Positions 4,384-52,949 of a stretch of 64,000 nt of DNA are shown here, piece by piece. The notes below the pieces were generated by a model. The model was not told where the DNA came from. It saw only the letters and a program-made list of their open reading frames with translations, and did not search any database. The number at the start of each line of letters is the position of its first letter. The stretch's first letter is position 1. The DNA is from Opisthorchis felineus (lineage: Eukaryota > Platyhelminthes > Trematoda > Opisthorchiida > Opisthorchiidae), in contig SJOL01006484.1 of the NCBI GenBank assembly GCA_004794785.1, forward strand, positions 920,221 to 984,220, read 5' to 3'. The position numbers and the translations under genes were made by a program.

Positions 4384-4635
4384 CAACACCCTGCTTACAA
4401 GGTCACTGAAACCTCTTCAACAGCCCATTGTCGGTTTCACCCTTCTTCAGGATCATCAGGGAGAGGAAAGTGGTGTCGTGGCATGGAAAAAATACTTTGG
4501 ATCTTGGATATCCTTGCAACTGAAACATAAAACGGTCTTTGTGAAGCATACACAGTCGAGGAAAACCGTGAACTAGAGATTCGGCTGGGATTCAGCTAAA
4601 TCTCCTGTTGATAACAAGTGAATTTACAAATGACG
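4384..4635 (-). repeat. Hammerhead-bearing interspersed repeat (family FB), copy 1
   Basis: The core of family FB is read on the minus strand at about 4384-4470, with CTGATGA and an intact GAAACC ribozyme-core segment. The hexamer that is ACCGGT in other copies is changed here. It is followed at 4520-4635 by the second module of the family (words such as ACTGAAAC, GAGATTC.GCTGGGATTCAGCT). Both modules recur near 26.6, 29.9, 31.8 and 34.9 kb. Confidence 0.6.
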
Positions 4636-23871: not shown

Positions 23872-24065
23872 CCCATTTGCACACAAATTTGGTTTTGACA
23901 GGAGACTCAACTGAATCCAGCTGAGTCTCTGGTTTGTGATTGTCCAACTTCGGTTCAAGAAGAACATAAAGTTGGCGGAAACTCGGTGACTGCGCTTACC
24001 GAAACCGATCGAAGTCTGTCGAACAGTTTTCAGCAACCTTATGAGTAGTGTGATACGTCTAGAAA
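23872..24065 (+). repeat. Family FB repeat, copy 2
   Basis: Shares with other copies TTTGGTTTTGACAGGAGACTC, GTTCAAG.AGAACATAA, GGAAACTCGG.GACTGCGC and TTTTCAGCAACCTTATGAG, ending at ACGTCTAG. The ribozyme-like core is degenerate here (CTGATGA is missing). Confidence 0.65.
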
Positions 24066-26611: not shown

Positions 26612-26895
26612 ATAGAACATACCACTCATAAGGCCGCTGAAAAATCTTCAGCAGCTGATGACCGGTTTGGCTCTTCTTGGAACTTATCAGGTAGGTGCTA
26701 TCCTCGAATCTCCGTCAAGCTTGAACCCAAATTGTGCACGATTTGCGAAGTACGCGCATTTGCAGACTAAGTCGTATTAGCTGGGAGACTCATATGAATC
26801 CCAGATGAATCTCTCGTTCATGATACTCTTCAGCTTAGTTTGACGCACAAAGGCCGCCTTATGTTTCAGTTGGTACGATATTCTAGATACAGTAT
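26612..26895 (-). repeat. Family FB repeat, copy 3
   Basis: Contains both modules on the minus strand: TTATGAG at the outer end, ACCGGT, CTGATAA (CTGATGA mutated at one core base), then the second module with AGCTGGGAGACTC and GTTGGTACGATATTC towards 26890. The C-terminal half of the 134-codon minus-strand frame here (26777-27181) is repeat sequence. Confidence 0.65.
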
Positions 26896-28734: not shown

Positions 28735-28910
28735 ATGAACTGTACAAAGGCCTCCTCATGATTCAGCTGAAAACATATTCAAGATACCGACGTATGAATC
28801 AGTGCTGCTCATATGATCAGTGAAAACCATGAAATGCCATCTACTGGTTTCACCTTTCTTGACACTCGTCAGACAGGCGTAGTTCCCGAATCTTTATCAA
28901 CTTTATCTCT
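28735..28910 (-). repeat. Family FB repeat, copy 4
   Basis: The minus-strand core at about 28810-28905 keeps GAAACC, but CTGATGA reads CTGACGA and ACCGGT reads ACCAGT. The second module's GATTCAGCTGAA and the ATATTCAAGATA words precede it. Decayed. Confidence 0.55.
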
Positions 28911-29894: not shown

Positions 29895-30475
29895 AGACGG
29901 GACACGCTACTCACAAGGTTACTGAAAACTCCTCGACAGCCCACAACCGGTTTTGCCTTTCTTGAGAGTGATCAAGTAGGCTAAGTCCCCAAGTTCCCGT
30001 CAATCTAATGTTCTTTTTGAAGGTAAATTTTATGCAGCTCGCAAAATGCACTCAGTTACAAACTAATTACTTTTTTACGGGAACTGAATCGCAGCTGAAT
30101 CTCTCGTTTTTGGTGTTCTTCAGCTGAAATTTAGGTCTCTTGTGAAAACCATGTCAACTTGCAAGAGAGTGCATTTCGCAAACTACGTCCAATTTGAGTT
30201 CAAGCAGAATATATGGTTGATGGAGAATCTGGAACTATGTCTGCTGGATGAGCCCCAAGGAGGATGAAGCCGGTTGTGGGCTGCCGAAGAGTTTTCAGCA
30301 ACCTTATGGGTAGCGTGTTCCGTCTAGCCGATATATGGCGATATGTCGAATACCGTACCAACCGAAACTTGAGGCAGCTTTTGTGCGGCATACTCAGTCG
30401 AAGAATACCATAAAGGATAGATTCAGCTAAGATTCAAGTGAGTCTTCTGTTATCACTAAAATAACCCGCAAATGC
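29895..30475. repeat. Family FB repeat, copy 5, full fold-back
   Basis: Two arms of about 210 bases (29895-30107 and 30121-30325) are inverted copies of each other, ending AGACGG and CCGTCT, around a short loop (ATCTCTCGTTTTTGG region). Each arm carries the GGGCTG/CAGCCC and AACCGG blocks of the hammerhead-like core. An extra second module follows to 30475. The arms have diverged by many substitutions, so the element is old. Confidence 0.7.
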
Positions 30476-31754: not shown

Positions 31755-32215
31755 CTTGAGTAAAACTCTTCGACAGAAATCTTGTGAGCAACCTTAAGAA
31801 CATCATACACGAGAGATTCAGCTGGGTTCCAGGTGAGGCTCCAGTCGAAACCAAACTGATATGCAGATGGGTGTGTAACTCAAATTTCGTGCAGTTTGGG
31901 TTCAAGTAGAACATAAGGTTGACGGAAACGTGGGGACTGCGCCTACCTGATGAGCCTCAAAAAGGGTAAACCGGTCGTGGGCTGTTGAAGAATTTTCAGC
32001 AACCTTATGAGTGGCGCATTGCGTCTAAACTTTGTGAGTAATTTCATTCAAGATAGTGCACACTGATATCTTGAATGTCGTACCTACTAAAGTATGAGAC
32101 GTCCTCTGTGCGGCAGATTCAGTTGGGGAATATCATAAACGAGATATTCAGCTGGGATTCAGCTGGATCTCCCTTAAATACCAAATTGGGGGTGGAAATG
32201 AGTGTATTTCGTCAG
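31755..32215 (+). repeat. Family FB repeat, copy 6
   Basis: Shows the second module (GAGAGATTCAGCTGGGTTCCAGGTGA), the core (31941-31982) and the outer end GCAACCTTATGAG...GCGTCTA, then another second module at 32090-32215 (AACGAGATATTCAGCTGG, AAATGAGTGTATTTCG). The best evidence that two modules alternate in tandem. Confidence 0.7.
31941..31982 (+). ncRNA. Hammerhead ribozyme-like motif in family FB, copy 6
   Basis: Stem I GCCTAC (31941-31946) pairs with GTGGGC (31977-31982). CTGATGA is intact (31947-31953). Stem II GCCT/GGGT encloses CAAAAA. The palindrome ACCGGT and cleavage triplet GTC follow. One base of the GAAA core segment is missing (AAACC), so this copy is predicted weak or inactive. 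Confidence 0.45.
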
Positions 32216-32499
32216 TTTTAATAGCTCTTGAATGATGAACAAACTTGGAACGCTGATGCCACGTGCACTGCACTCAGTAGCTTTGTTTGGTTCATAAAGT
32301 GGGGCTCAGATTTCAGAGACATGTGCAAGCATTTGATTCCCCTTTCCACAGTAGGGTCGAACATGTGAAAACACTGAGTCCACAAAGATGTCACAACAGG
32401 TGGAATATATTAAGAAGTCAGATTAATTGTAGTGTTTCGATTTACTTCAGGAGTCTTTACGAATCAAACGATGTCTTCCGTTCTTGATCTGACATGAGT

Positions 32500-32660
32500 T
32501 ATAGGTTGACGACAACTACTGGACAATTCACTATCATCAGGTGGACTTAGTCCTCAACTTTCCAGCAAACATACTTGAAGACAAAGTGGTGCTTATTCAG
32601 AGATAGAAGCTTATCTACTGAATCTGTCGTTTTTGATATCGTGAACCATCTTAATCTGCA
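32500..32660 (-). repeat. Family FB repeat, partial copy
   Basis: Only the outer-core word ATCAGGTGGACTTAGTCCTC and a diverged second module (CTGAATCTGTCGTTTTTG) remain. Too eroded to judge the ribozyme core. Confidence 0.35.
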
Positions 32661-34908
32661 AGATTTCTACTCCACATATAAGGTCCTAATCACAGTTTGC
32701 AGACAAAATATCGGGAACAAATTACCATAGAAAAAGAGGTGACCAGCAAAATTAATGAATAGGTTGTACAGAGAATTTTCACAAAATGTAGGAGCGTGTG
32801 GGCACAATTAGGGAGGGAGAGAAGTCGAGTGCATCCGATGTAACAGGGTGACCGTAAACGACTTTGCAACTCATTTTGAAAATGAGGACACTGACACGAC
32901 TTCCTAATATCTTGATTTTCCGCCTCATGAGAAATCTTGAATGTCATCAGGTGGTTGAAGAGCTGCAACCACCAGTTAGTGAGCTTTGTTGGGAATTCTG
33001 TGTGACTGCTCACGAGTTGGTTGAACCAACAGTTTAGTGCCCGCCAAGAACAACTCGAGTCACTAAGCGCAAATGGTGGTGATTTTTCTTGAGTTACCGT
33101 GTCTTTCGATTTCGAGAGACTGATCTAAAACTGTATCCGATTACTTAACTGTAGAAGGATGGTTGTCACTCAGGTCGGCCTGAAGACTCTCTCGTCAGGT
33201 TAACGTAGGAATGCAAAAATAGGTCTGGTATGTGATGCAAACGACCATTGGAAAAGACCAGAGGCTCAAACCTCTAATGTAGCAGTTACGTATCTCTACA
33301 AAATCTGAGCAATTCACTCCTTGACTAAAACACCTGGTGAGTTTGTTACAAGGACCCAGACACGCAGACATTTCCGTCGCATGAGGGACTGCGTATGTGA
33401 GCCTGCCTGCCGTACCCTCAAAGTTCGTGTGGGTGCTTGAGGGGAGACGCCACATTATTCGACCTGTTAAAGGGATGGGGTCAAATTGTTAAGGCAAACT
33501 TGACGACAGATGTTAGTCCTCTCTGAGGAGAATCCAAATGTGCAAGGGCGCTGGACCCCAGATGGTCTAGCTGGAGAGCTCAAATCAGGAAGGTGAGTGG
33601 ACGTTCAGCTGGGCATGTAAAAGCGATCGATAGGCGGGACTGTAAGAGACACCGTAACGGTCTTGGTTTGGCTATGAAAGCAATCACGGGGCATTTTTGC
33701 TGGCTTCCCGCTTTCTGGCTAAATCAGGTCACAATCCACCTCAGAGACTGAGTCCGACAAGTGTAATTCTTTTGAGAATTTCCCTGCTGCTGTAGGCAGA
33801 ATTTGGTATACTACATTCAATCAACAACGCCAATTCCCATATCTGCTCTAAATGAGAACCTACATTAAACGGTTGGAATTACTGTTGCAAGGTTCCTCTG
33901 GATCTTTCGCATGATCTGTTGAAAACGAAGACTGCAAAGAATGAAGTGATTCATGGTATTTGAGACCTTGATAGACAAGGCAGCATGGCTTGTTTACCTG
34001 TATTGCAGATCCACTTCGTGGATTCGTGGACACACATGAAGAGTGACAGGTCCTGTGCACGCGTCCGTCCATTTTACCCTTGCTTAGTTATTAGTTCGAA
34101 TGCTGGTCTCAGATCCAATAGCGCGACTACAAACAGACTGGGTACGAAAAGTCGCACATGACTGGTTTTGTTTTCTGGAGTGTGTTGGCATCAGGAAAGT
34201 CACCTGGTGCATTCCATGAACTAACGCATCTATGTGCGTTCGGCCCATGCATATTTTCCAGGGTACACACAAGTGTCACTCTCTCAAAAGGCTGAGAAAC
34301 CCGTGTTTTAAAGCTGGCGTTCTCGACTTTCAAAACTGAGTGGACATTCGGCTAAGCAAATACAAAGGATCTACAGGTGGGCAGTTTCTTGCATGAGGTA
34401 ATGTATTCAGCACTTCTGCCAACTTTATCTGTTTTAGCCGAACCATACCAGTGGCTGTTGATTAGAGCTAAAACCACATTCCGCAGTGCACCAAAAATGG
34501 ATGTGATGCAGGAACGAATATGTAACAGTTGAAGAATTTAATCTCTATTCAGTTTCTGGACAACAATAAAGGTCCGTGTGGCTTTATTTCCTGTGGCTTT
34601 CTTCCCGTGGCTTCTTTCACTTCCCCACTCGCACAAAAGTGGTTCTTCATGCAACCTGTCTACTTCACTCGAAGCGGTCCTATTAGGTTTACTAAAAAGA
34701 ACGAAATTTGTGGTCCGATTACTGATACCGTACACTTTTTTTATGATTATTTACGTGGGAACAGAGCTCGTGCTAGCATGTTACCCATAAGGAGGGAAGT
34801 TTTTCAGTGCACTATCAAATGTTTCAGAATATTTCCTTAGCCGATCACAACCGGTACATTTTAGCTCTTCCGCAGTCCCACCAAAAAAAAACGAAAGGTT
34901 TGAACTAG

Positions 34909-35195
34909 CGAAATACACTCATTTGCAAACAAATTTGGTTTTGCGAGAGACTCACCTGGAGCTCAGCTGAATCTCTCGTTTGTGGTGTTTCCAGTTGGGC
35001 TCCAGGTGAGTCTCTCGCAAAACCAAATTTGTTTCCAAATGAGTGTATTTCGTTGATTCCGTGCAATCTGGTTTCAAGCAGAACATAAGGTTGACGGAAA
35101 CTCGGGGACTGCGCCTACCTGATGAGCCCCATTAAGGGCAAAACCGGTCGTGGGCTGTCGAAGAATTTTCAGCCTGCTTATGAGTAGTGCCTTAC
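34909..35195 (+). repeat. Family FB repeat, copy 7, with long palindrome
   Basis: Begins with a near-perfect inverted repeat (34909-35052; arms about 62 bases, few mismatches). The core follows (GGTTGACGGAAACTCGG, then the hammerhead-like motif at 35113-35155) and the outer end near 35190. The high arm identity shows this copy is younger, or more recently rearranged, than copy 5. Confidence 0.75.
35113..35155 (+). ncRNA. Hammerhead ribozyme-like motif in family FB, copy 7
   Basis: Stem I is six pairs, GCCTAC (35113-35118) with GTGGGC (35150-35155). CTGATGA spans 35119-35125. Stem II GCCC (35126-35129) pairs with GGGC (35136-35139). Then AAAACC where the active consensus needs GAAACC. Stem III is the palindrome ACCGGT, and GTC (35147-35149) is the cleavage triplet. 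Only the G-to-A change at 35140 departs from a complete core; copies at 4.4, 28.8 and 37.2 kb keep GAAA at this position. Confidence 0.5.
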
Positions 35196-35583
35196 GAATA
35201 GAAAGATTTGAATATTTATGTTGGCTAATTAATGTAGGGGATATTTAGCTGCACACGATGAGCTGTCCTCTTGTCTCCTTCTGTGGTCAGTTAGCGAAGT
35301 CACCTCCATCACAAATGAAAAAAAGCGGTGAAGCAGGCAGGAATGCCATTCCCACTTTTGGGATTGCTTAATATAACACAACAAGTTCAGATGGCATCAA
35401 ACTAGGTGTCCTGAATCCGCCTGTTTCACCTATCCGTTGGCTGACTGTCAGACGGAATTTGGTTGCTTCATTTGCCTTATCCACTGTAACCGCTCTTATG
35501 CAAGGTGTGTTGTTCAGAAGTTTGTCAGTGTGCAGTCATCCTAATTAACCGATTGCTGATAGAGCGGATGCTTCTTCGCTGTT

Positions 35584-37179: not shown

Positions 37180-37362
37180 GACGTAATGCACCACTAATAA
37201 GGTTGCTACAAATTCTTCGACAGCCCACGACCGGTTTCGCTCTTCTCTAGGTTCATCAGTTGGACGTAGTCCCCGAGTTTCCGTGAACCTTACGTTCTAC
37301 TTGAACTCAAATTGCACGAAATTAGCGAAATACACTCATTTGCACACGAATTTGGTGTATGC
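37180..37362 (-). repeat. Family FB repeat, copy 8
   Basis: The minus-strand core runs from the outer end (TAATAAGGTTGCT) through AGCCCACGACCGGTTTCGC to GTCCCCGAGTTTCCGT. The AAATACACTCATTTGCACAC word of the palindrome arm follows near 37330. It is truncated after TTTGGTG, where unrelated sequence begins. Confidence 0.65.
37221..37265 (-). ncRNA. Hammerhead ribozyme-like motif in family FB, copy 8
   Basis: CTGATGA (37259-37253) and GAAACC are both intact here, with ACCGGT, the GTC triplet and the GTGGGC strand of stem I. Stem II is disturbed (ACCT...AGAGC) and the upstream strand of stem I has two changes. It complements copies 6 and 7: the core bases lost there are present here. Confidence 0.45.
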
Positions 37363-38230
37363 TTCGGAACAAAACAAGGCACGTTAGTCACCAAGGTATT
37401 GCCACCGCTATGGTCGACTCCTTCTGTATATACAGCCCTTGGTTCCATTTCCTGTGGTAGTGGATTCAGGTAATTGCAGCATCTTACAGGTCTTTGCCCT
37501 GTACACGTTATGAAACGCACGCGCCAGGTTGACAAATGGACCAGTTTCACGTAAACGCTGAACTATTGAAGTTAATATTGATCGTGCAATCGTCTCCGAA
37601 TTTGAATTTGGGGACGGAGACGCGGACTTATCCAAACGTAGCTAGGTCTAAATAGAGATGTCTTCAGCTTGATTGAATCAAAGTTGCCTCTCAGCTCTAC
37701 CTAGGTAGATGACCTAATTACCTCACGTAAAGCGACGATCAAAATGAAGGTGGTGCACGAAGACAGTGGAACTTTACCTGTATGCGTACGGACTGGGTTG
37801 CAGATGTAGATGACTACAGATTTGGTAGCATAGTAGGCGTCTTTAACAGTTGACTTTAGGTTCTGCTACACCAGATATTCTAAAATTTTAAATTCAGGTA
37901 AACTTCTTCTTTTGGGACCGAAACCTGATGTGCCCCTCTACGAATTCCTAGGGGTATCCGTTTGCGTGAAATATCTCCTCCAAGTACTTCAGTTCTGCGT
38001 CTGAGCAATTTTGACGGATACTGAAATAATGCATTATTTGGCAGAGCAAGAGCCTGAAAGAAGTGTGAGGCGTTGGCAAATTTATTGTTCCCAGTCATTT
38101 TGTGTAAGAAGGCTAAAAAACTTCGGGTCTGTATTTCCAACACATGATGAAGAAGACACTTTGCATCCAGTTGACATGAAATACCGTGTTTTACCCACTT
38201 TGTGCAAAGCAATTAAAGTAATCCTAACAA

Positions 38231-38273
38231 CGCACTGATGATGTCACCTCGATTGGTGATGAAACGTTTGCAA
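38231..38273 (+). ncRNA. Hammerhead ribozyme-like motif, Penelope type, copy 2
   Basis: CTGATGA (38235-38241), one extra T, stem II GTCACC (38243-38248) with GGTGAT (38255-38260) giving five pairs plus a G-T wobble, then GAAACGTT (38261-38268) with palindromic stem III ACGT. GCA before the core pairs with TGC after the cleavage site (38269-38271). Flanks (CAAATTGCC, CGGCGAACAAAG) match the 5.4-kb copy in inverse. Best-preserved core of this type in the window. Confidence 0.5.
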
Positions 38274-38399
38274 TCAAATTGCCCAGCCCAGCCCGGCGAA
38301 CAAAGCAACGACCAGGGAGACACTGTTTAGGAGTTTGGTGTTACATATCTTGATTAACATAACGACCAACGTCGTGCGCACAAGACGTATTGGCCCAAG

Positions 38400-52200: not shown

Positions 52201-52204
52201 TGAG

Positions 52205-52376
52205 CGTACAACGTGCGCTGGTGGAGTAGTGCTAACACGCTCGCCTCTCATGTCAGATGTCCGGAATTCAAATCCCGGCACGGCCATTGGATATGCCCTG
52301 CTGATGAGCTCTAATAAGAGCGAAACTCGGGTCCAGTGCTTCCCTTTGGTGTGGACCCACCAGAATAATTACGCCA
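52205..52376 (+). mobile_element. tRNA-derived SINE, family 1, copy 2
   Basis: Head GTGCGCTGGTGGAGTAGTGC, box B-like AATTCAAATCCCGGCACGGCC, body GAGCTCTAATAAGAGCGAAAC and end GTGTGGACCCACCAG match 7409-7577. This copy keeps the tRNA-like part better than the other (GCTAACACGCTCGCCTCTCA). Confidence 0.7.
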
Positions 52377-52949
52377 GAACAGGAGGGCGACCGTTCAAAC
52401 GAGAGTGGTGTGAATATGGACATTTGGTTAAGTAAAAAGGCAGTGGTTGCATAAAAGGAGATGCCCTAGAAAGGGTGGTTGCCAGTAAAGAAGAAAGAAG
52501 ATTACATCTAAGATGGTCAAATCGTTTGACTGCGATTAAGTGGACTGTCAAGGCGCTTCAGCTTCAGCCATCCAAGCAAACTGGGGGGAAGCAGTAAAAC
52601 AAAATGAATCATGCTGCTGGTGGGATATATTCAGCCTATCCGTAGATAGTAATTCAAGGAATCAAATTAACTTAGCGGACCCGCTCCGACTGTTTTGTCG
52701 CTGTTAGAAATTCAATCACTAGTGCATGAACATCAAGCGTCAGGAGGGTGAAAACCACAGAGGCTGTTTGACTTCCAGTATGGTCACCGACGATAAATGG
52801 GTCAACTGTGACGTCATACTTAGGAGATTGGGAGTGCCCTTATTGCCCGGCTGATGTGAAATTTACACTGTAGTTATGCTTGCCCGTAAAGAAACCACTT
52901 GGCTGATTTTTTCAGAAGGGCTTGGTAAACAACCGGTAGTTTTTTATTT

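Follow-up and report, generated by a model that had tools for sequence, protein, structure and literature searches.

A decayed hammerhead retrozyme in Opisthorchis felineus and a foldback insertion signature common to Penelope-like elements and a hammerhead SINE

The hammerhead-bearing repeat at 34905..35200 (plus strand) of the window, the 64-kb stretch of Opisthorchis felineus DNA analysed here, is probably one decayed copy of a metazoan non-LTR retrozyme, a noncoding and non-autonomous element of high copy number that is mobilised by Penelope-like elements (PLEs). The kind of element is already known. What is new is its foldback insertion signature, which is common to the PLEs and to a hammerhead SINE of the same genome. 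The earlier note had interpreted this DNA as an unclassified repeat family with a hammerhead core; the interpretation is supported overall, with the hammerhead repeat family standing and the word "unclassified" giving way to non-LTR retrozyme. If the proposed mobiliser is correct, the hammerhead marks RNAs that parasitise PLEs, and a single machine would explain the spread of both the retrozyme and the hammerhead SINE. The shared outward foldbacks would be the genomic footprint of that machine, which makes the question of the mobiliser directly testable with a PLE protein that is active in vitro.

Foldback insertions and their ends

The copy at 34905..35200 consists of an inverted tail (unit 1–76) joined to unit 15–223, which carries the hammerhead. 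Comparison of its flanks, together with the sequence, identifies a target-site duplication with GAAAGGTTTGAA on the left (34893..34904) and GAAAGATTTGAA, with one mismatch, on the right (35201..35212). The inverted halves form a long hairpin at 34917..35044 that is MIR9555-like in Rfam, below the gathering score. The matches of this region to MIR9555 (59.3 bits) and mir-2941 were rejected as miRNAs, since they overlap the foldback hairpin and are sub-gathering; a hairpin that scores as a miRNA precursor is a possible source of false miRNAs in annotation. The window also carries an older copy of direct form at 31809..32218 (plus strand), made up of unit 5–295 in pieces followed by unit 3–82.

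Target-site duplications of 9–19 bp, called from a flank match scoring 9 or more, were found in 23 of 37 elements and in 3 of 222 mismatched-flank controls. The 37 elements come from 35 loci and include one that is counted twice (L012 is the same as L036), so that 22 distinct elements of 36 are duplicated. In 14 of the 37 the flank comparison gave no clear duplication, which counts against the retrozyme reading. Because the query used to fetch the copies was itself a foldback, ending at unit 223, both the frequencies of forms and the proportions of ends are biased. In this set one end lies at unit 71–83 in 21 of the 22 duplicated elements; the other lies at 210–233 in 18 and at 191–194 in two, and the remaining two elements are of direct form. 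No end falls within 15 positions of the predicted ribozyme cut, which follows unit position 172 (ends were taken from BLAST and may stop short in old copies). The outer pieces are on opposite strands in 20 of the 22 and face outward every time, i.e. they stand in the order minus, plus, with both RNA 3′ sides toward the genomic junctions. There are also like-with-like pairs that have no clear duplication: two end near unit 80 on both sides (L040, L042) and one ends at 211 and 219 (L022).

Copies that were encountered incidentally in the window and in 18 longer loci, and were not chosen by shape, provide 15 body matches that reach at least unit 190. Ten of these end at 205–233, one at 268 and four at 293–296; with the three that run on into another unit set aside, the count is 10 of 12 at 205–233, one at 268 and one at 293. 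As read from these alignments, insertions end preferentially around unit 80 and at 210–233, away from the cut at 172.

Penelope-like elements, the hammerhead SINE and the mobiliser

PLEs are plentiful in the same genome. A piece of PLE reverse transcriptase gives at least 150 matches (150 scored of 2873 candidates), many of which sit in open frames of 500–900 aa. Those at C1498:562667 and C733:254272 fall within open frames that are 4871 and 5323 residues long and may represent PLE units in tandem with no stop between them; on C860, PLE matches are 2781 bp apart, a multiple of three. The PLE minimal hammerhead, CTGATGA...GATGAAACGTTTGC, has 498 exact genomic copies and none in the control. Searched as a regular expression, it occurs in both PLE end regions, in two of five further PLE loci, one of which has a variant end, and at position 38235 of the window, a count of seven hits in which two loci are included twice. 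The window hit belongs to a PLE remnant at 38228..38320 (plus strand, CTGATGA at 38235), the outer limits of which were set by eye. Minimal hammerheads of PLEs are reportedly the subject of work by Lunse et al. in 2017. Rfam gave no match at E ≤ 1 in the five 9.9-kb PLE loci, and the two PLE end regions matched neither Rfam nor the R1 model; the R1 model does find a retrozyme copy in L053. A search of six GIY-YIG loci for the retrozyme unit returned two weak matches, both in L046.

The SINE lies at 52204..52418 (plus strand) and combines a tRNA-like 5′ part with an intact-core hammerhead at 52289–52343. We call it Sm-alpha-like for this layout and not from a sequence alignment. Rfam model HH9 scores 36.3 bits on it (E 1.7e-5), the gathering score of 52 not being reached. 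A model built from the retrozyme hammerheads, among the rows of which this site is absent, scores 27.7 bits (E 2.2e-6); the SINE is a different element. It has at least 47 genomic matches at 90–100% identity (40 scored of 4621 candidates), and inspection of a sister copy by eye reveals a B-box string as well as a stem I of six pairs. Retrozyme, SINE and PLE remnant place three hammerhead families within one 64-kb window.

Opposite-strand neighbours no more than 600 bp apart face outward in all three families: in 8 of 8 cases for the retrozyme (among 100 matches listed of 3113, with 15 same-strand pairs besides), in another 8 of 8 for the hammerhead of the PLEs (among 100 listed of 498, with one same-strand pair besides) and in 7 of 7 for the SINE (among 47 matches, again with one same-strand pair besides). 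Where the opposite-strand partner of a SINE copy is partial, as in six cases, it extends to query 221–234, which is the usual 3′ end or close to it. The common signature thus appears to be one of outward foldbacks in all three families, joined by preferred ends on both sides in the retrozyme and the SINE.

PMC11167929 describes a PLE protein that in vitro cuts both target strands, extends each of them and begins to copy its own RNA at two adjacent internal sites. Mutation of the PLE hammerhead had no effect on insertion in vitro according to the same text (PMC11167929), and the insertion step may therefore do without the ribozyme. The main text of PMC7229834 names PLEs as strong candidates for the mobiliser of metazoan retrozymes and leaves the enzyme open. 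Here, foldback insertions with fixed ends suggest that the retrozyme borrows the enzyme of Penelope-type elements, and the agreement between the outward foldbacks and the behaviour of the PLE protein in vitro points to insertion of retrozyme, SINE and PLE by PLE machinery. The full claim, that the PLE enzyme inserts the circular-type retrozyme, the Sm-alpha-like tRNA SINE and the autonomous PLEs alike, through a reaction that involves both target strands and internal priming and so differs from the one used by LINEs, is put forward tentatively, at somewhat less than an even chance.

Insertion of the retrozyme by this route would begin with multimeric transcripts that cut themselves, probably by means of hammerheads pairing across two units, and ligation would turn the cut monomers into circles. 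Both target strands would be nicked by a Penelope-like reverse transcriptase, and on each of them copying would start at one or the other of two fixed internal sites. Joining of the resulting two cDNAs, often in the strong hairpin predicted at unit 6–40 (−24.9 kcal/mol), would give foldbacks, and one-sided priming would give direct copies. The unit and the two PLE end regions have no significant sequence in common (best E 0.89), which counts against this route at its recognition step. A literature search covering titles and abstract openings, with subscription papers mostly outside it, found no foldback signature in retrozymes, which is weak evidence.

An alternative, which we consider unlikely, is that a LINE moves the retrozyme and that the foldbacks are ordinary 5′ inversions produced by twin priming. 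Duplications of 9–19 bp are typical of LINE insertions, and twin priming also yields outward-facing halves. Against this reading, twin priming should scatter the second end over internal positions, yet 18 of 22 ends in the biased sample lie at 210–233, 10 of the 12 incidental ends lie at 205–233, and the partial SINE partners stop at the usual 3′ end of that element or close to it.

The 307-bp unit, its arrays and its known relatives

In the window and the fetched loci, the retrozyme unit is about 307 bp long and stands single or in tandem. Its G+C content is 46.6%, and it is noncoding, the longest ATG frame being an antisense one of 63 aa; it has no long frame of the kind that encodes reverse transcriptase and GIY-YIG in a PLE. 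Consensus patterns for the A and B boxes of pol III find neither in the unit, a weak test in that the strict pattern for the B box fails on the window SINE as well. The circular unit is predicted to fold at −100.0 kcal/mol, whereas 100 dinucleotide shuffles average −77.9 (z −4.0), with a paired fraction of 0.64 that is not unusual (shuffle mean 0.61). A motif shared by the two ends of the unit was attractive and was dropped as non-significant, 416 of 2000 shuffles showing a likeness as high.

The closest known systems are the metazoan non-LTR retrozymes, which the main text of PMC7229834 (Cervera and de la Pena 2020) describes as noncoding tandem repeats of 150–450 bp with a type I hammerhead, a GC content below 50%, duplications of more than 4 bp and co-existing PLEs, platyhelminths being among the named phyla. 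The O. felineus unit is noncoding and tandem and is like them in hammerhead type, unit size, G+C content, duplications and co-existing PLEs; it is unlike them in that its insertions are foldbacks and have two preferred ends, and that main text nowhere uses the word "inverted". Its stem III, ACCGGU, is a palindrome with one A–U pair and a CCGG tetraloop, i.e. of the newt-like minimal type. The same source describes the newt and axolotl satellite hammerhead HHR_Amex1 as having a single-pair stem III, a palindromic tetraloop and a 330-bp unit, and as cleaving much better in dimers (PMC7229834). The two share the one-pair stem III and palindromic tetraloop, a likeness of layout and not of aligned sequence, and differ in host group and unit length. 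The minimal hammerheads of PLEs (PMC6155905) are similar in their short palindromic stem III and, in the present analysis, in their outward pairs and their presence in the same genome, but the 307-bp unit has a longer stem I and no reverse transcriptase frame. Finally, Sm-alpha and Sj-alpha are SINE-like elements of schistosomes (PMC6155905, PMC8490949), which the 52.2-kb element resembles in its tRNA-like 5′ part and type I hammerhead; the 307-bp unit differs from them in that consensus patterns detect neither box in it.

The subtype string of the unit occurs at 386 genomic places, and among the 100 listed the spacing in arrays is 307, with up to 11 units in a row. A few neighbouring cores, among the matches listed of 3113, are 293, 304 or 309 apart and not 307. 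In all five arrays examined the interior units are of one subtype and the edge units are older and divergent. Some of the older edge-unit changes are common to both edges (L031 4849–7383, L040 3954–4982, L034 4371–5229). The homogeneous interiors could result from homologous integration of circular copies, from homogenisation or from assembly gap filling, and in one locus (L038) a run of N adjoins the array. Since the interiors may be artefacts of the assembly, their identity is given no weight in favour of a circular RNA template. A kinesin motor exon (L033 2286–2546, Pfam E 3.6e-22) lies near one retrozyme array.

Interiors of one subtype with older, divergent edges, and the spacing of 307 (among 100 listed of 386 places), would also be expected of a satellite spread by unequal exchange and segmental DNA events, in which the ribozyme is a fossil with no current role. 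This is very improbable: dispersed single copies that are duplicated at both ends point to retrotransposition. Still less credible is a foldback or MITE-like DNA transposon that carries a hammerhead by accident, for which hairpin ends and inverted halves speak; against it, direct-form copies (L035, L036) have no terminal inverted repeats, the duplications vary in length over 9–19 bp, and tandem units exist.

Integrity of the hammerheads

The hammerhead core that the earlier note had placed at 35113–35155 and 31941–31982 is present base for base in a direct reading of the sequence. At the first site, on the plus strand, the 5′ strand of stem I, GCCTAC (35113–35118), is followed by CTGATGA (35119–35125), by stem II, GCCC/GGGC (35126–35129/35136–35139), around the loop CATTAA, by AAA (35140–35142), where the G12 position is an A (35140), by ACCGGT (35143–35148) with C17 at 35149, and by the 3′ strand of stem I, GTGGGC (35150–35155). 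The second site has the same layout, is one base short at G12, and has GCCT/GGGT as stem II. A type I hammerhead has CTGATGA, GAAA, three stems and a cleavage triplet, and with G12 gone neither site is a complete hammerhead. Both are probably inactive themselves. In its full extent the first hammerhead occupies 35105..35162 (plus strand), keeps stems I and II with G12 changed to A, and has its predicted cut after 35149.

A family model made of 41 distinct hammerhead copies finds 11 sites in the window at E ≤ 0.1, including the SINE site at 52289, which is outside the family; five rows of the model are window copies, so their scores are not independent. Besides 35105..35162, the matches comprise remnants at 31933..31989 (plus, G12 lost), 30231..30288 (plus), 29932..29989 (minus), 28829..28886 (minus), 4416..4473 (minus), 37216..37273 (minus, GAAA kept and stem II damaged) and 26647..26704 (minus, found by the Rfam search as well). 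Weaker are a remnant at 23986..24023 (plus, E 0.022) and a partial match at 32519..32554 (minus, E 0.00031), which misses the inner part of the ribozyme and may be due to chance. The family-model alignment agrees with the earlier description of the copies at 4.4, 28.8 and 37.2 kb as retaining GAAA and having damaged stems.

Intact relatives are abundant, and the complete hammerhead that had been inferred as the ancestor of the family is borne out by them. One identical intact 58-nt hammerhead makes up 41 of the 89 hits retained from the window and the fetched loci, a set that is not a census, as loci overlap in part and hits not spanning the query were dropped. In the 630-Mb genome, a pattern that fixes the exact core and the 3′ strand of stem I but lets stem II vary has 3386 occurrences (1679 + 1707), and its reversed version has none; with stem II exact and stem I free, there are 3113 cores. 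A whole-genome search with the window copy gave at least 105 matches from 40 scored of 3204 first-look candidates. The intact genomic copies have the three stems, the cleavage triplet and the opening at stem I that characterise type I hammerheads.

The Rfam models, proposed earlier as a check, gave no match at the gathering score in the window or in 12 loci, although a fully intact copy is present in 11 of these. Of three window copies scored by HH9, the one at 35104–35168 reaches 30.0 bits (E 0.0018) and the other two reach 25.2 and 20.1 bits, against a gathering score of 52; in the loci with an intact copy its best score is 36 bits against 52 (E 2e-6). This shortfall is not taken as a refutation because stem III carries a loop in the best-fitting Rfam model, and this ribozyme has no such loop. 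The low scores of the window copies are what a chance resemblance to a hammerhead would give, an explanation to which we attach almost no probability in view of 3386 exact cores against zero in the reversed-pattern control and of the HH9 E value of 2e-6 in the intact loci.

Covariation in the stems, the second check, also went against the hammerhead, with none beyond shuffles in the 41 family copies: the score is 0.100 compared to 0.095, 83 of 500 shuffles being as high, and 92.1% of cells are paired compared to 92.0%. Nor does the isolated hammerhead fold better than its shuffles (z −0.62), which likewise counts against it. The absence of covariation is not treated as a refutation, since dispersed repeat copies decay neutrally after insertion. 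Genome-wide, the third pair of stem II is C–G in 3113 cores, U–G in 112, C–A in 140 and U–A in 11. The double change to U–A is expected 5.0 times if the two positions are independent (Fisher p 0.023), a weak excess at most, and the broken C–A pairs are not rarer than the U–G wobbles. These counts fit neutral decay of inserted copies and are no demonstration of selection on the stems. The G12 column of the 41 distinct hammerheads from the window and the fetched loci contains G in 24, A in 14 and C in two and is missing in one, while the AAAC that follows is invariant. In 11 of the 14 rows with A at G12 the preceding base is C, and decay of CpG would be the simplest reason for the change.
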